A DNA stretch of 23,638 nucleotides from Lineolata rhizophorae. Taxonomy: Eukaryota > Ascomycota > Dothideomycetes > Lineolatales > Lineolataceae. The notes under the pieces were generated by a model. It searched no databases, was not told the DNA's origin, and was given only the letters and a program-made list of their open reading frames with translations. Where the stretch lies: assembly GCA_010093515.1 (NCBI GenBank), contig MU001684.1, forward strand, positions 10,067 through 33,704, given 5' to 3'. The translations under genes were made by a program, and so were the position numbers. Shown in pieces: positions 5,378-23,638 of the stretch (position 1 is its first letter; the number at the start of each line of letters is the position of its first letter).

Positions 5378-7583
5378 TTAGGCCAAGGCAATATTTTTCC
5401 GGCGTCTGACTTTGTCGCAAACTGGTAAGAACAAGTCGCTTCGGATTGTCATAGTTCCGATTCGTCTCGCAACTCCACCTTCCCATTCGATCAAGATAAA
5501 CATGCACAAAGCTTGGAGGTATTTCTTGTTCTCACCGACAAAAATGCCTTCCCAGGTAGCTTGGCCCAGCTCCCTGTAGAAATCACCATTAGTTTTATCA
5601 TCCTTCAAGAGTCTTACCCATCCAGACTCTTTTTCTAGATGCGCAGAACCATTTTCTAATGGAATCGGATGACCGATCCACCTGTACTCGTCCTCCTGCA
5701 CACCCCACTGCTGTTTCCTTAGACGAAATTGCACCACTGAAGCATAGAGGTGCAAGCGATGCGAAAGCTTTCCTTGGGTCCTCTCCGCTTGCGGCAGCTG
5801 CCGGTATGTGATGAGGTCTACGAGGGTGCCATCTTTCATCTCCACCTGAACGGAACACTCATTGTCCATTTCCGCTCGTTGGTCGTAGAATGAAAATGCG
5901 TTGACGCGACGATCCCACCCAGTCCACGACCAGCTAGGAAAATGCGTTCTCCTCGCAGAGGGAGCCTCGACGAGGTCCCAACAAAGGCCTCGAAGCAGTC
6001 CTTCGTCCGGCTTGTCAGGGCTAGCCCTATCAAATAGGGAGTCGGAGAGAATTGGAACCCCCCACACATGGTAGAGCGGATTGGCAGGGTCTTCCTCATA
6101 GGCCGAGAAAACTCCAGAAATTGCATTCAAGTAGTCCGAATTGTAGCTGAGGTTCCTTCGCGAGTATTCACCAATACGATCCTTGACAGCAATGCTTGAC
6201 TCTCCCGACATTTTCGTGTCGTCAAAGACCCTTGAACCAAACCGTTCAGGGACCGAGTTTTCAACGCGTCCCGTAGAGGTGTCCCTGGCGCCATTCATGG
6301 CCTCGCGCCAGGCCGTAGATCGACATTCGAAATAAGCTTGGCTGGCTGTGAAGAAAATCCGTCGCATTGAGAGGATCCCCTCCTGGTACGTCCACCCTCT
6401 GGTCAACCATTTGGATTTTTGGACTTCGTTAGTCGGGTTCTGAAGGGACGAGAGTAATTTCTTTCCGGCAATATCGGCCGACATCTGGGGGCCGCGCCCT
6501 TTTCCCCGCACTCCGGGAAAACCGAAGGAATCGTCTTGACCGGCGGCGGCAACTAGAGTCACAACCGCATTCTGATACACCAAGTTCATGGCTGCAATTT
6601 GGAGCTGCTTCTTCTCGCTCTCATTTTGCGCAATGCAGTATCGGTCAACCCACAGATACCGCAACCCAAGAGAACGCGTCGCCACGATGGCATCCTCGAT
6701 GACTTCGGGAAAATTGTTCGGTCCGTAGTCCCTCGGGGGGCCCCAGCTGGAAGCAGTCAGCGCAAATACCGAAACATAGAAGGGAGGGAGTACCGCACAC
6801 GTAACTTAGAGCGACATATTCGTCGTCCCCAGATGAGTCTACGAGCTCTCTCGTTTCTGTGTCCATCAGGCGCAAGAAAGGGACGGGGCGGAATACGTTA
6901 ACGCGACATCGTTCGTGGTGCGACCTGCAATGCCGGAGTTGCCAACCGACAATGTCGAAGTCGATCGCTTCGTTTGACACCAATCGAAGTGAATACGGCG
7001 GCGACGCGGCCGAGAGCGAGTGCAAGCCGATGAACTCGAATTGAGTCAACCATCTCAACATCTGGCTCGGTTCTTGCAGCTCTCTCCAATGCATGGTCGG
7101 GCTGACGGCGAGCACGACTGTGTCGGGAGCGGTAACATCATCTTCCGCGTCGGGGACTGCCTGCCACAACAGTTTGCCAGAGAAAGCGCGCAGCTCGAAC
7201 TCTGCGCCGTCGTACGTATCTTCGGCGACGGGAGCGAGGATGCACTTCAGCATCTGGCAGAAGGGACAAAAGTCGGCGAAGATCTGCGCGGCCCAGCAGC
7301 CCAAGGAGAGCACGAGATTGCCGTGTCGGCCATGGATATCGGCGCAGCAGAGGACCTGCGGAAAATCGATTTGCGCGCAACGCAGACAAAGCCCGTCAGG
7401 GTCTTGCGGACCAGCTCTCGTGATCTCGCTACGCTTTTCTTCTACAGCAACGTCGTCAAACCGAGCGCTCGCATGCCCTGCAGTGTCATCTTCGGCCGAG
7501 GCCTTGTCTTGGGCGACCGCATCCCGGCGCCGAGTGCGGGACCGGATCGCCGAGAGGGCGCTTGTCTTTAGGGTCTTGAACAT
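5378..7583 (-). CDS. HET-domain (heterokaryon incompatibility) protein, exons 6799-7583 and 5378-6746
   Basis: HET proteins trigger death of fused cells with unlike genotypes and are thought to have a TIR-like core. Splicing out 6,747-6,798 yields 717 aa. Seen in order: LCLRCAQIDF and CPFCQ in the N-terminal part, RLMDTETRELV, then YVALSYV|WGPPRDYG exactly across the splice junction (about residue 262). Next come PEVIEDAI, LGLRYLWVDRYCI, the GWTYQEGILSMRRIFF block and WSWTGWD. These are the hallmarks of the family, in the right order and at typical length. I take the first ATG at 7583 as the start. The frame is open upstream to a GTG at 7805, but no ATG precedes. Neighbouring DNA holds gene fragments, usual around HET genes. 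No partner gene such as a NACHT or STAND protein is fused or adjacent. It appears intact. Confidence 0.93.
6747..6798 (-). other. Intron of the HET gene (52 nt)
   Basis: On the minus strand it starts GTGCGG, has GCGCTGAC as a branch site and ends GCTTCCAG. It splits the Val codon of the conserved ALSYVWG motif. Without splicing the motif reads ALSYVCG and the frame then ends before the downstream HET blocks. Confidence 0.88.
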
Positions 7584-8011
7584 GAGGCCAAGCAACGGGT
7601 GCGACGGGAGCGCGTGGTGCGGAGCGCCAGTGGTGAGACCGAGGGAGAACAGCCTGGGCGCGGCGGCGTCGGAGGGACGATCTCCCGGCACGCCGCCCCT
7701 TTTCTCCTTGATATCGGCTCGCAGCTGCAGAACGCAGTCTCGAACGTGCGTGTCCCTCTTCACGGAAGTCAAGCACGCTCGGTTGTCCTGATGCCTCGTG
7801 TGCACTCATCACAGAATTGCCGCTTCCGAAATCGTCCTCCCACGTGCCCGTTCGCGCTCTATCCTTTAGCACGCCGTTAGAAGCGACCGCACTCCAACGC
7901 GCTCAGACGTTCCGGCCATCAGCATTTCATTTTTTTGGCGAGTGGTAGCAGGCATTTGTCCGGCGACGAAAGCCGTGCGCAGCACGCCGCAACTGGTCGA
8001 CGATGCAGACG
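7584..8011. other. Intergenic, promoter side of the HET gene
   Basis: GC-rich up to about 7,870. It should contain the HET promoter and leader, but no TATA box stands out. A minus-strand ATG at 7,872 opens a 128-codon frame antisense to nothing known. Its first 40 codons look protein-like and could be an extra 5' exon of the HET gene, although I find no convincing donor. Confidence 0.35.
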
Positions 8012-8100
8012 CCCCCTAACAGGTGTCTCAACGGCGTATTTATGCAGCCTCAGATAGTACTGTTCTCAATGTCAATGGACTTGGCCTACCCATTCCAGAG
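8012..8100 (+). repeat. Copy B of a diverged coding-like repeat (partner at 2,645-2,726)
   Basis: Contains ATGCAGCCTCAG and, in the matching frame, NVNGLGLPIP, aligned to NVNALGLPVL of copy A on the opposite strand. One stop lies just upstream in this frame, so it cannot be an intact gene as it stands. Confidence 0.5.
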
Positions 8101-8748
8101 CTCCACCGGAATCTGACAATCCGTTATGCCATCTTTGGACACCTGGCGCTGGTTTCACGCCGAATTTGGCGAAAGGACGGTTGGCAAATGCCGCATTGCT
8201 CCTTCGCGTTCGTCCCCACCTTTCGTCTTTCGCTTCAATCTATTTTTCTTGGTCGACACTATTGTTTTCCTGACCGATTTCTAGGGGTCGATTCATGTTC
8301 CCCGTTTTAGCTGGCCCATCCCACGGGCCGAGCTTCCAACGAGCCTCTTAGCGAAGGCGGACTTTCGGTCTCTTAGCAATCCGCCATGACATGGGCTATC
8401 GTCACATGCATCGCAGATGTTATCTGACTACGAACCTCGCTGCTTCCCAGTAGTACTTGCATCGGTTCGCGCAGGGCCACCATAGGTGCCCATCGACTGA
8501 TTATTCCCACCAACACTTTGTTATCACATTCTGGAATTCACAGCTGGTTCAGGTTCAATACCTTTATACCACTTAGGCGGCTGCCTGTGAGGACGGACAC
8601 GCCTGTAATTGAGACCAAGGAACCGCCAGGTCAATGCCTGCATGGTTTGTTGAAAACCAAACGGTACTTCAGCCCAGCTTGCAATGCTCTATGAACACGC
8701 TTTTCTTCTCAGTCATTCCCCAATACAACCCAGTTCCAATTCTTCCAT
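8101..8748. other. Intergenic, 3' flank of the disordered-protein gene
   Basis: No convincing gene is seen. Plus-strand open frames here (for example 8,023-8,310) have low-complexity translations or carry the decayed repeat copy B. Confidence 0.4.
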
Positions 8749-10333
8749 CTACCAATAGCCATTCCACCCCGTCCGCTCCGGTATATTCGGCCTCCATGGC
8801 CCCGATCCAGCCAACTTCGGCCCCTTATGCGCATTTTCCTTTGTCTCCTCGTCCTCGACCACGCCGAAGCGAGGACGGCCCTGCATGCAGCAGTAGTCTG
8901 CATACATGCCGTCGGGCCCGTCTTCGTACTCGTCTAGCACCATGCTCAGCTCGAATTCGTCCGAGTCTGTCAGGCCCACCACTTGAGCCGGCCCGATCCA
9001 GTTGACGCCAGCCATGTGTTCGTACTGTCCCTCAGCCGCGCCGTCGTCCCAGCGTATGATGGCGTCTACGAACGGTGCGCGAGAAGGGATTGGCTTAGGC
9101 GCCGCGAGCGGAGGTTGCTGACGCACTTGGTGAAGTGGTTCCTTGGGTTCGTTGACGGGTGCCTGGGCCGGCTGAGCCCGTTGTTGCTGGTGGCGAGTTT
9201 TCTGAAGCTCGTCTTTGCGGACGCGCTCGCGGCGCTGCGTCATGGCCGCTTCCTGACGGCGCCTGTGTGCGGCGTCAACAGCCGGGGACCGCGAGCGTCC
9301 ACCTTCATGTGATCCCCGTTTAAATTGACGACCGCGAGGACCCTCATCGCTCCTTTCCCGGGAGTCGCGAAGGTTGCTGCGATGGCGGTACGCGGCACTG
9401 TCGCTGGTTGTGACTTCCGTGCTGGTGCCCCACGGCGAGGGAGACGATCGAGCCTTAGAGGACGTCCCTGGAGGGATATAGACGAAGTTGGCATGACCGC
9501 CATCGGGGCTGGGCGTCTCTTCGGTGATGTCGGCGGTAACGATCACCTCTCCTTTAGCAGCACAAACAATGCTAGGACCAGCACTAGCATATATTGACGG
9601 GGCTGCGGGGTCGGGTTGGTACCGCTGAGTCTGGAGCGCGGACGATGGCAACACGCGACCGACGACTGCCGGACTCAAGTTGTCGTTCCAGGGAGAAGGC
9701 GTGCTCTTAGCTACATCGTCAGCGACCGTAGCAACTATATCGCCAATAGGCAAAGCTTCGCCCGAGTTGGCAATGCCACTGACATCTGAACCCCCAACTA
9801 GCGTCGACGTGGAGTTCATCACCGGACCAGGCATATGCGCGAGCTCAGAACCATGGTCACTCATGTCAAGCTCGGTGCCGAAGATTGCATCCTCCGCGTC
9901 CATATACCGATCAGATGCTTCAGCATCTTTGTCGGAAGCCGCGCCACTAGGATCAACATGACTACCTACGTTCTCCATGGGCACCACGCGCGGCTGTCCG
10001 GTCCACACCTTGGTCAGCGTAACCACGTGCGTAGGCGTCTCGACAATCTCCTCGCACTCGACCACTACGAGGACTTCTTGCAGCCCAGCAGAGCGGTCTC
10101 GGACACGCGAATACTTAGACTCGGTGCTACGAGAGGTGGTAGTGTGACGCTGGGTATAATCGAGATGCGCTACAGCGGAGCACATTTGTCAGTCGGGAAT
10201 GTCACATAGATATAGCAATAGCAAAGCCCAGGAACAACGAACCATTATCGCGCTGCTTCCAGGTTTGCGACTGTGTGTACTCGGCAAGTTCGTTGCCGGA
10301 GAAGGCGAGAGGAGGACTGGGAGGACTGTCCAT
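8749..10333 (-). CDS. Hypothetical disordered protein, 503 aa, exons 10243-10333 and 8749-10169
   Basis: ATG 10333 follows a C/T- and A-rich leader and is the first ATG of its frame. Exon 1 (91 nt) encodes MDSPPSPPLAFSGNEL... A 73-nt intron (10,170-10,242) then joins in frame to HLDYTQRHTTTSR. The sum, 1,512 nt, is an exact number of codons. After a short hydrophobic strand-like segment (about residues 50-75, QEVLVVVECEEIVE and HVVTLTKVW) the protein is mostly disordered. An acidic region follows, then a basic Arg/Gln-rich stretch around 300-370 with QRRERVRKDELQKTR, likely helical or coiled-coil. An acidic/aromatic C-terminus (RWDDGAAEG..., ending NGYW) closes it. No known domain is recognised. 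Acidic and basic blocks suggest a nuclear or nucleic-acid-associated role, but this is only an inference. Confidence 0.72.
10170..10242 (-). other. Intron of the disordered-protein gene (73 nt)
   Basis: On the minus strand it begins GTTCGT, has CCGACTGAC as a branch site and ends CCGCTGTAG. It separates exon 1, whose frame would otherwise run into a stop, from the long exon. The phase (one base, then CG) is preserved. Confidence 0.7.
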
Positions 10334-20449: not shown

Positions 20450-20761
20450 ATGGCATCCGATGCGGCCGTTCATGGCCCAAATAACGACGCTGTGTCCATT
20501 ATCCAAACCACACTTGCCATGTTGCTCTTTGTCCAGCAAATTATCGAAGTCTACAAACTCGTACGAGCCGTTAGCAAACTTGTGTTCTGGATCGCGCGAG
20601 TCGTTGTCAAGTCTTCGGTCTACATTGCAGGCGGAATCGTCGGACTACTCGAACTCGTAGTCATGCAAACGCAACGTTTCATGTCCCGTGTTTTGAGCCA
20701 ACTTCTAAAGCCGGAGCTATCGATCGTGATCGTCGCGCTTACGCTGTTCTTCTCAAACTAA
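20450..20761 (+). CDS. Small multi-pass membrane protein (103 aa)
   Basis: ATG 20450 (CCAATATGGCATCC). After a polar 14-residue start there are three hydrophobic spans: about 16-34 (SIIQTTLAMLLFVQQIIEV), 44-70 (with IVGLLELVV) and 88-102 (LSIVIVALTLFFS), the last ending two residues before the stop. Basic residues fall between spans (YKLVRAVSK, QTQRFMSR). No family is recognised. It has a complete start and stop and consistent composition, so I think it is real. Confidence 0.5.
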   Translation: MASDAAVHGPNNDAVSIIQTTLAMLLFVQQIIEVYKLVRAVSKLVFWIARVVVKSSVYIAGGIVGLLELVVMQTQRFMSRVLSQLLKPELSIVIVALTLFFSN

Positions 20762-21335
20762 CCGACGTCGAAAGATTACGGCTGTCCGAAATCTCAAACT
20801 CGTCCCACGAGATGCGTTCCTGCGCATTGGCTAGAGGCGTTGGGTAAGAGTTGAGAAGGAAGGAAAGGCATAAAGCAGTGGTTGTGTGGGGGATAGCGCG
20901 ATGGCAGGGTAGCACTTCGCTGCGTTCGGCGGCGGCTCAGGCCAAATAGGCTCTGGCATGGGTATGGAATATACTTCAAATGCAGTGTGCTTGCATGCGT
21001 CTGGCCTACCACGCGAACCGCCAAACATGCCTTATATTTCCGCTATGACATGGCGCACGCGAAAACCAGATGGCCAAAGGGGGGCATTGGCGCAAGGCAA
21101 CAACGCCCTGGCGATCCATTCATCTCGCCTACCACATGCCCATATCCTTCGCTGCCAGGCCGATACTTCCAGTCCGCTCCTCGCATCCCGCGCCGTGCGG
21201 TGCTTCATCTAGCCTGACCGTGAGGTCGGCTTTGGTACGGCATCGGGAGACCCCGGACTCGTCCCAGGGCATCGATGTGGAGGCGCCGGGCCTAGACCGG
21301 ACGGCTGCAAGCGGAGAGAAAGTGGGCGTGGCAAC
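20762..21335. other. Intergenic leading into the GC-rich repeat array
   Basis: A 65-codon minus-strand frame with ATG at 21,028 (Pro-rich, MFGGSRGRPDACKHTAF...) has a stop directly upstream and no other support. GC content rises from about 21,040. Confidence 0.35.
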
Positions 21336-22200
21336 GAAGCAAAGTAAGTTGGCCCGTTTTGAGTTTGGATGCGCGCTTGTTTCTCGAGGATAGGGAGGGC
21401 GAACGCCGGGCGCCGGTTGGCGCCACAAGACGCGGGGGCAGGATCCAACCAATCGCGCGCGGGCCGTCTGGATCGGGAAATCCGGCGCCGCGGCAAAATC
21501 GAACGTCGGCAGGATTTTCCTCGCCTTTCAGCGTCATCTCCTCCACGGCTGCGGCGCCCCGGGGCCTGCGGCCCAAGCCACACGCCCTCCCCGACCGGAT
21601 CCGGCAACCTCCGGCCTAAAATCGAACGTCGACATTTTCGTCACGAAATCGGCATGCGGCTCTCGTTGCCCAGGTGGTCGCACGGCGTGCCGATGCGGCA
21701 ACTGCAAGCCACCCGTCGACGCGCCCAATCGCGAGCCGTGCGCCGCGCTGGATCAGGAAGTCCTGATCGCAAAATCGACCGTCGGCATAATTATCAACAC
21801 GCTAGATGAGGCTGTTCTCTCGTGCGCTCGCGCCGTCGCCCGGCCACGCGGTCGCTGCATCCAACCAACCACACCAGCCTCGTCCGGATCCGGCAACTTG
21901 CATCGCAAAATCGAACGTCGGCGAGCCTTTCCATCATAGCCGTGCCCAATGGCGCCCGCCCGGGCACATGGAACGCGGCGGAACAGCGTTTCGACCCAAC
22001 GGCGTGTCGAGCCAATCATTCGGTCGCGGCCCCGGATTGGGGAATTGCTAGTAAAATCTAACGTCGGCTGGATTTTTGTCGTGATAGGCACGCGCGCATT
22101 GTGGAATTGGAGCGTGTCGTTCTCGGAAGAGTGCTACGAAAGCGTCCGGAAGAGATCCTGGATCGGTCCCTGATCCGATAGAGTAACGTACGCGAGCTGG
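21336..22200. repeat. GC-rich diverged tandem array, about 7 units of 123-153 bp
   Basis: Core AAAATCGAACGTCGGC or a close variant starts at 21,495, 21,618, 21,771, 21,907 and 22,053. Weaker copies sit at about 21,342 (AAAGTAAGTTGGC) and about 22,179 (AGAGTAACGTACGC). Spacings are 153, 123, 153, 136, 146 and 126 bp. About 19-25 bp before most cores lies GGATC inside a dyad (CCGGATCCGG, or GATCAGGAAGTCCTGATC). Before that, several units carry CCAATC or CCAACCAA; after the core several have ATTTTC-TC. Many open frames occur on both strands here only because the DNA is GC-rich. No known element ends are seen. Confidence 0.82.
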
Positions 22201-22309
22201 GCAGTCTAACTACATTTAGGATCCAACACACATCCCCAGATTTGAAGCTGTAGGAAACTACACGCAATTGAGATTATACGATAGATCGTAGGTGTTGAGG
22301 AAAATCCAC
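22201..22309. other. Short spacer between array and Copia remnant
   Basis: A/T-richer sequence without gene signals. It may include the decayed end of the Copia element, but no LTR boundary is visible. Confidence 0.3.
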
Positions 22310-22700
22310 TCATCCAAGCTGTCCTACGAATCGCTCATGATGCTGATGTACAAGAGCCCTTTGTAAGGCCGTTAGCGACTATATTAGCTGTGGCCACCTA
22401 TTCTATAGCGACGCAGCCTTTATCAATTTCTTGCCGAATCCGGAGGCGTTGAATATCAACGTGTTTCAACTTTGTACGAGTTGTAGTGTAGCCTTGTAAG
22501 AACTAGCATGCCCTAGCCTGGCACAGTATCGCACCCTGGGTGCAACACTGCCAGCTAAGAACATATACTCGCTAACACCTAAAGAACTAGTGTAGCTCCA
22601 GTATAGATATCGTAATCGAGTAGAGCAAAGTGAAGCAAGATCTTTTTTCAGCACTATACGGGCTGTCATGGACAGCATAGATAGTGGCAGCAGTAGCACG
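22310..22700 (-). mobile_element. Broken Ty1/Copia retrotransposon remnant (RNase H end of pol)
   Basis: On the minus strand short stretches match the end of Copia polyproteins: SEYVFLAGS (RNase H region), then TKLKHVDIQRLRIRQEIDKG and VATANIVANGLTKG, in family order. It is a fossil: only the 3' part of pol is present, with several breaks, so it is inactive. It appears old to middle-aged, since the motifs are recognisable but no own LTR is attached. Confidence 0.8.
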
Positions 22701-22974
22701 TAAGTTTACGGCTACGCGGTGCCGGCCCCGGCTCCGCTCTATGCGGCACATGTAGATCGCAGAATAGAGCTTAGCTCGTGCTCTGCAACCTCACCTAATG
22801 CACTCTGTTTGACACCGTACTCTCTGAGACGCTCGACATGGGCGATAGTAGTTGAGTGAAGCAAAGCGAGGCAAGACTAATCAGGCCGCGAAGCAAGCTA
22901 TGTACGAGTGAAGCGAGTAACAAGAGAGGGCTACAGGTATAACCTCGTTAATATATTGATAAATTATTTGGCTG
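22701..22974. other. Spacer between Copia remnant and solo LTR
   Basis: Contains a GC palindromic stretch (GCCGGCCCCGGC near 22,723) and short GAAGCAAAGCGAG / GAAGCGAG repeats at 22,858-22,920, plausibly more decayed element sequence. A protein-like minus-strand stretch at about 22,760-22,850 (HVERLREYGVKQSALGEV) is too short to assign. Confidence 0.3.
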
Positions 22975-22979
22975 TCTGT

Positions 22980-23154
22980 TGTAATGGGCTAGAGCCCAGG
23001 TAGATCCTCGGTGGAACCTTCGGTAAGACTTCGGATCGGGGTTGAGTACCTCCGATCCTCTGCTAGGTAGAAAACTCTATCCGAGAGCCTTTCGGCTCCT
23101 TATCGAATACAATCCTGTTACCAGGCACCGGCAACCTCTGCGCAGCCCCTTACA
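22980..23154. mobile_element. Solo LTR, 175 bp, probably Copia-type
   Basis: Begins TGTAATGGGC and ends CCCCTTACA, so its ends are the inverted pair TGTAA/TTACA with the TG...CA of LTRs. It is bordered by TCTGT at 22,975-22,979 and TCTGT at 23,155-23,159, a 5-bp target duplication. No primer-binding site or coding part adjoins either side, as expected after LTR-LTR recombination. The intact duplication suggests a fairly recent insertion. Orientation is uncertain; the minus strand would match the nearby pol remnant. Confidence 0.8.
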
Positions 23155-23159
23155 TCTGT

Positions 23160-23597
23160 TACCTACAAGAAAGACAGAATGAAATCAATAGAAGCTCAGT
23201 AAATAAAAAAAACCAGTCTATCAAGGAGCGGATCACAAGTCGTACAGCACTGTTATAGAACCAAAGTCCGATTGAGGTGGAGATAAGATGTAGAACCGAA
23301 GTATAAGGCCTATCTAGTGATCTGTCTAGTAGTGAGATCCAGGCGGAGTTGAACGTACGTGCCCAGCCCACTCGCAGATGCTGTACTTCTACGTATAGTA
23401 GCATTTCACTCGATACGGCCAAAAATCAACAGGAAGCAAAGCTTCTACCTGGTTACAGTTGACCTGGCCTGTTAGCCAGACCTTGGCACATGGTCTTGGC
23501 ATGTTAAAAGGCTACTATACCTATGCAATTTTAACTGGTTTACTTAGGTTGCATATTTAATAGGTCTATTTGCCTTAAATGTTTAATAACGTAATCA
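23160..23597. other. A/T-rich sequence without a gene
   Basis: A minus-strand frame (23,159-23,422, 87 codons) is hydrophobic and lacks a family or a clear ATG context. Small inverted motif AGACC/GGTCT at 23,478-23,496. Nothing else is seen. Confidence 0.35.
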
Positions 23598-23631
23598 CCC
23601 ACCGAGTGTCTCAACCCATCGAGTGTCTCAG
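23598..23631. repeat. 17-bp tandem repeat, two copies, at the window edge
   Basis: CCCACCGAGTGTCTCAA followed directly by CCCATCGAGTGTCTCAG; two transition differences. It could be the start of a larger array or the end of a DNA transposon whose body lies beyond the window. Confidence 0.55.
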
Positions 23632-23638
23632 GGACGCG

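Follow-up and report, generated by a model that had tools for sequence, protein, structure and literature searches.

The window, i.e., the whole stretch of 23,638 nucleotides that was analyzed, is located on contig C15 of a 31-Mb genome (48 contigs). It harbors a HET-domain gene (Pfam PF06985, E 8.5e-24) and, following a 103-aa ORF without Pfam match, an array of five boxes in GC-rich DNA (GC 0.63-0.64 across 21001-22000; Table 1). The HET-domain gene suggests that the genome is that of a filamentous fungus. To the right of the window there are two neighboring DUF3669 ORFs (L029:5644-7026 and 7758-9059, +).

Organization of the Array in the Window

Each box ends in the core AAAATCGAACGTCGGC, and all five cores have the same orientation (pattern search with up to three mismatches allowed; each copy has at most one). 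The chance expectation for the entire window is 0.16 matches, and five were reached in none of 100 shuffles, so that the five strong copies proposed by the sequence-only reading are borne out and lie above chance. A repeat finder returns the identical five copies, and the steps between cores are 123, 153, 136, and 146 bp. Tandem Repeats Finder reports no array at the boxes. Two additional weak copies had been proposed, but a box profile applied to the window (filters off, E up to 10; all five window boxes are among its 17 training sequences) gives just five in the array region, its ten matches elsewhere in the window all having E ≥2.8. The array does occur within the interval first delimited, 21336-22200, although the boxes cover less of it. 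The longest direct repeat detected in 20800-23638 is a 51-nt repeat associated with boxes 1 and 4.

A GGATC dyad had been placed 19-25 bp upstream of each strong copy. GGATC indeed starts 25, 21, 21, and 21 bp before the core in four of the five copies and is replaced by GGATT at 19 bp in the fifth, but a perfect dyad (GATCAGGA-AG-TCCTGATC) is present only in the upstream half of box 3 and is not kept in the aligned upstream halves of the other boxes. The CCAAT-like motif described before several copies is found as CCAAT ahead of three of the five.

Table 1. Coordinates of boxes, repeats and genes in the window, and places of full box copies in the genome.
Feature	Position	Strand	Upstream half	Core (mismatches to AAAATCGAACGTCGGC)	Profile E	Remarks
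HET-domain gene	5378-6685	-				
103-aa ORF	20450-20761					precedes the array
Complete window array	21470..22068	+				five boxes, single orientation, steps 123-153 bp
Box 1	21470..21510	+	GGATCGGGAAATC	AAAATCGAACGTCGGC, 21495-21510 (0)	1.2e-07	training sequence
Box 2	21595..21633	+	CCGGATCCGGCAACC	21618-21633 (1)	1.4e-08	training sequence
Box 3	21748..21786	+	CTGGATCAGGAAGTC	21771-21786 (1)	9.7e-09	training sequence
Perfect dyad of box 3	21751-21768					
Box 4	21884..21922	+	CCGGATCCGGCAACT	21907-21922 (0)	2.2e-10	training sequence
Box 5	22032..22068	+	CCGGATTGGGGAATT	22053-22068 (1)	5.6e-08	training sequence
51-nt direct repeat	21430-21480 and 21846-21896	+				71%; before and into boxes 1 and 4; has ATCCAACCAA stretch
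17-bp repeat	23597-23630					two copies
Places of full copies	C1:1.174M, C6:188k, C7:145k, C7:959k, C11:1015k, C15 (window)					
Places of full copies, continued	C22:498k, C24:255k, C26:467k, C30:313-315k, C37:159k					

The Composite Box and Its Distribution in the Genome

The shared box consists of a sequence near CNRATYNGGNAAYY, a gap of 4-15 bp, and then GTAAAATCGAACGTSKRC; the AAAATCGAACGTCGGC core is one half of this composite. GGATC is typical of the window copies, whereas genome-wide the upstream half is closer to CNRATYNGGNAAYY; the element itself is a composite and exceeds the length claimed from the window. In the window and 19 further loci, profile R1, built from 17 copies, finds at least 32 non-redundant copies with both upstream half and core (E <6e-4; 16 of the 32 are training sequences). 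These occur at 11 places on 10 contigs, with C7 carrying two (C7-145k and C7-959k). Matches to the core part only are found on C28, C10, C14, and at C1:401k (E 3e-4 to 0.016).

In pattern searches of the genome, the core with up to two mismatches gives 54 matches vs. 15 for the reversed pattern. For GTAAAATCGAACGTCGGC (up to three mismatches) there are 63 matches and 24 in the reversed control; the 11 places account for 27 of the 63, and the remaining 36 barely exceed the control (those on C28 and C10 were retained in a set of 34 copies, and 34 isolated ones were dropped). The composite pattern of upstream half plus core yields 38 matches against 5 in the reversed control, with 24 in the 11 places, the one at C1:401k retained among the 34 copies and 13 dropped, and a second composite pattern with shorter spacing yields 16 against 0, all 16 in these places. 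The exact 13-mer TAAAATCGAACGT occurs 21 times in the genome (19 in the 11 places) and once in the reversed control. Neither viral nor prokaryote collections contain a match to the exact 33-place box pattern; four single matches of viral contigs to an 18-place pattern, none of which extends to the longer one, were taken as chance.

Three of the 34 copies (k10, k28, k1s) fit the profile through their core part alone. With k10 and k26c set aside, 32 copies agree without exception at seven core positions; four of these 32 have T in place of the C of ATCG, and 28 have C. In 25 of the 34 copies a GGNAA begins between -24 and -13, compared with 0-3 of 34 at seven other offsets; nine copies are without an upstream GGNAA in that form. 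A third block, near RAAWTTCAAGATCNGTACCARACTTTG, lies downstream of the core and is common to the arrays on C1, C7-959k, C11, and C37, here termed subfamily A. Searched without the core, this block gives 10 matches vs. 0 in the control, nine of them adjoining a core copy and the tenth, on C1, having a recognizable GGTAGTC upstream and no good core. The E-box CACGTG is present at -80 to -36 in 10 of the 34 copies (background 0.0175 per 45-bp window; binomial 2.4e-10, a value that overstates the enrichment because related copies are treated as independent and the background is less GC-rich); the window array contains none.

More arrays sharing the core at 120-155 bp spacing had been named as support; further arrays exist, but without a fixed spacing in this range. 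The distances are 151-271 bp in C11, C37, and C7-959k, 121-459 bp in C7-145k, and 16 and 97 bp in C26, where another copy lies about 600 bp off. Because spacing varies between arrays, the suggested nucleosome phasing is unsupported. In C26 the 16-bp core is duplicated head-to-tail (AAAATCGAACGTCGGT then AAAATTGAGCGTCGGC, locus minus strand, L023:2470-2501). Orientation is uniform per array save for one inverted copy on C1 (L055:1311-1720), in which one box is opposite to the other two, the sole clear exception.

Conservation of Boxes and Spacers

Identity within the window array is 0.92 over the first ten core bases and falls to 0.19-0.33 in the 10-bp bins beyond -30 and beyond +30, apart from 0.49 at -50 to -41, in agreement with the original impression of a kept core and a diverged spacer. 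Subfamily A behaves similarly: the first ten core bases are 0.97 identical both within arrays (20 pairs) and between arrays (71 pairs), and bins before -30 or beyond +70 are 0.20-0.35, within and between arrays alike. Between subfamily A and 11 other copies the same ten bases are 0.96 identical, and part of this conservation is ascertainment, because nearly all copies outside the window were found by core patterns, some also by GGNAA. The downstream-block search is the sole test free of this bias, since it does not use the core, and it covers subfamily A. The block itself is 0.79-0.83 identical at +20 to +39 and then decays from 0.67 to 0.40 by +69 within the subfamily; across its four arrays it is 0.74-0.83 identical, compared with 0.55 for random 35-mers under the same alignment. 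Against the same 0.55, identity over the whole 26 bp upstream is 0.63-0.76 for copies of one array and 0.49-0.73 for copies of different arrays, the latter values being mostly 0.5-0.7 and little higher than random. The upstream half is thus weakly kept outside GGNAA, and only this short part is clearly kept.

Spacers were compared by gapped alignment against shuffled controls. The mean spacer z is 0.4 in the window, 0.3 in C7-959k, 1.4 in C37, 1.9 in C11, 2.0 in C1, and 4.4 in C7-145k, whereas box z ranges from 7.5 (window) to 20.4 (C7-959k). Spacers are slightly more alike within C11, C37, and C1 (1.4-2.0) than between subfamily-A arrays (mean 1.2), and C7-145k is a partial exception, its spacers being not fully free. 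A young or neutral tandem satellite, whose units should be more alike within than between arrays, is disfavored for the window and subfamily A by their near-random flanks, which in subfamily A differ about as much within as between arrays. The view that the array is unlike a neutral satellite therefore holds for these, with C7-145k as the partial exception. Near-random flanks around an intact core indicate that the arrays are old and mostly not homogenized (C7-145k in part excepted). A strictly neutral tandem repeat would not retain its core amid lost spacers, and selection is likely to have kept it.

CENP-B-box satellites also have a conserved short box, NTTCGNNNNANNCGGGN, in units of 120-200 bp. 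The arrays resemble them in this respect but comprise 2-5 boxes between ordinary genes, with spacers mostly not homogenized and a mismatched box: compared by eye with this consensus, the reverse-strand core fits TTCG and not the A or CGGG.

Genomic Surroundings

The arrays sit between ordinary genes without a consistent position relative to them. The C11 array is downstream of an Ariadne-type RBR gene, the C37 array between a PIG-L gene and an ELO gene, the C7-959k array upstream of, and on the same strand as, an ESF1-type gene, and the C1 array downstream of a Spb1-type gene, mostly on the opposite strand. Those on C22 and C30 are near an M28 peptidase and a TRAPP gene, respectively, and the C24 array is near a GH17-like enzyme (two exons, each below the Pfam cut-off). 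The C26 array has a PDDEXK_12 ORF on one side and a zinc-knuckle ORF on the other, and on C10 the core-only site is near a HET gene. Three ORFs of 100 aa or more overlap the window array, none with a Pfam match (E up to 0.1), and no transposase or reverse transcriptase domain is found in selected ORFs near the arrays. Three ORFs over the C11 and C7-959k arrays give one Pfam match, far below cut-off.

Used as a BLAST query, the window array matches itself only, and the C11 array matches itself plus 11 stretches of 35-90 bp in C1, C7, C11, and C37; no longer element common to the arrays was found with these two queries. A match of about 139 bp at 81% links C30a, on C30, with C6. Together with the shared downstream block, this match implies that units spread by duplication or transposition, and blocks common to unlinked arrays show that the duplication is ancient.

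Putative Clusters of Protein-Binding Sites

In homotypic clusters of transcription factor binding sites, conserved sites recur in intergenic DNA and the spacers between them are free. The arrays likewise contain several copies of a motif close together, beyond chance, the motif being conserved and the spacers free (in C7-145k not fully so). On the sequence evidence, the arrays are probably homotypic clusters of composite, direction-bearing candidate protein-binding sites, kept by purifying selection at the DNA level. The family relationship of the copies, their clustering, their orientation per array, the conservation of core vs. flank, the lack of an RNA fold in subfamily A and the lack of a protein domain over the array are all consistent with this reading, and the protein-binding role that had been suggested at the outset remains the best fit among those considered. 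As in homotypic clusters, one short motif is kept and the remainder is lost; in contrast to them, each site is a long composite of about 40-75 bp, orientation is uniform per array (C1 excepted), and no target-gene logic is seen at the arrays.

The unit would comprise the upstream half near CNRATYNGGNAAYY and the nearly invariant core GTAAAATCGAACGTSKRC, separated by 4-15 bp of free sequence; four arrays add the third block near RAAWTTCAAGATCNGTACCARACTTTG, and in some units an E-box CACGTG lies about 36-84 bp upstream. Both halves would be read by one sequence-specific factor or by a pair of them; the bipartite form, with a gap of varying length, is suggestive of two contacts or two proteins, and the uniform orientation of a directional complex. 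Adjacent sites would raise occupancy, and the cluster may then, to judge from its intergenic position, serve as a regulatory or chromatin-organizing platform between genes (enhancer, silencer, boundary or anchor). Spread of the boxes by ancient duplication fits this reading.

The main rival is that the arrays are relics of an ancient dispersed repeat of about 200 bp (a small non-autonomous element or euchromatic satellite), the box being the recognition site of a transposase or other mobility protein and selection acting for spread rather than for the host. This is possible, although it seems doubtful. Units do occur both singly and in tandem at unlinked places, the C30a-C6 match and the downstream block in four places point to shared descent, spacer similarity persists in C7-145k, and the C26 array lies between the PDDEXK_12 and zinc-knuckle ORFs. 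However, subfamily-A copies are old by their flanks and still have an intact core, which a dead element would lose; only 32 full copies were found among the loci examined (window + 19), and neither the BLAST searches from the window and C11 arrays nor the scan of selected nearby ORFs reveals a shared long element with ends or a mobility enzyme. The two readings can both hold.

A more specific alternative, by analogy, is a dedicated chromosome-organizing system of filamentous fungi, in which the arrays would serve, for example, for pairing or anchoring or as boundaries, and a dedicated multi-domain DNA-binding protein would read them. The few places per genome and the repeated direction-bearing boxes recall the design of nematode pairing centers. 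According to PMC9071541, the HIM-8/ZIM zinc fingers of C. elegans read 12-base motifs of the pairing centers, and each chromosome is enriched in these motifs at one of its ends. The common feature would be that dedicated proteins read motifs concentrated in special regions of chromosomes; here, the 32 full copies lie at 11 places on contigs not assigned to chromosomes, two of the places on one contig. Such a system appears rather improbable.

Clusters of a small non-coding RNA gene and TFIIIC-only sites are both less likely than a mobile repeat. A conserved unit of about 75 bp with free spacers resembles clustered small RNA genes, but the consensus fold of 14 subfamily-A copies has -0.13 kcal/mol and three pairs, none changed on both sides, so that the compensatory base pairs of a structured RNA family are lacking in these copies, and the gap between the halves varies in length. 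No Rfam family reaches the gathering score in the window, and eight loci give one chance-level match, outside the boxes. An RNA gene is accordingly quite improbable.

TFIIIC-only sites and the B-box boundary arrays of S. pombe are tandem short boxes between genes. The arrays share this layout, and their reverse strand, CGTTCRATTTT, is close to the Pol III B box, such that they could be additional TFIIIC sites forming boundaries without transcription. Relative to the consensus GGTTCRAnYCY, as given in PMC11547032, 9 of 11 positions are matched in 28 of the 34 copies, 10 in one and 8 in five, and the R position of the consensus is occupied by G or A (28 vs. 4 of 32). By this form of the consensus, however, position 1 is C rather than G in all 34 copies, position 10 (consensus C) is T in 32, C in one and A in one, thus failing in 33, and the best copy stops at 10 of 11, so that the strict B box is absent. 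The conserved blocks also extend past what a B box explains, and by eye no A box (TRGYnnARBGG) is seen in register. No tRNA was found in the window or 12 loci, although an extra-TFIIIC site would not need one. The arrays are therefore very unlikely to be TFIIIC-only sites.

Chance similarity or a protein-coding repeat is scarcely credible: open frames overlap the window array and an in-frame peptide can be read from the subfamily-A unit, but the shuffles and the composite-pattern controls speak against chance, and several spacings, 136 and 146 bp in the window among them, do not divide by three, with third codon positions of the core hardly varying in any frame.

Novelty and Implications

The box matches none of the families tested in motif, length or architecture, in line with the first impression that no known family could be recognized; clustered binding sites are themselves a known kind of element. 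No description of the box was found in open-licence PMC papers, nor did a word search of these papers yield conserved arrays in fungi. In such papers the 12-mer TCGAACGTCGGC has a sole match, unrelated, about haloarchaeal GFP, and among the matches listed for the 11-mers AAATCGAACGT and ACGTTCGATTT none is evidently a fungal DNA element; the latter are taken for chance, such as primers.

A compact fungal genome offers no easy explanation for clustered long conserved non-coding boxes. Should a protein read them, the boxes provide a ready probe to find that protein and a means to test whether fungi keep special chromosome sites besides centromeres, telomeres, and rDNA. If they are instead a mobile family of great age, it needs explaining how one box persisted while the rest of each unit was scrambled.

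Two further local repeats occur. The C7-145k array (L021:2100-3900) contains a second word, approximately TATCACGATGTTGA, eight times (up to three mismatches, both strands; the reversed word gives 0), which has 0 occurrences in nine other box regions. Near the right end of the window, the 17-bp unit ACCCACCGAGTGTCTCA is repeated head-to-tail in two copies with 94% identity.
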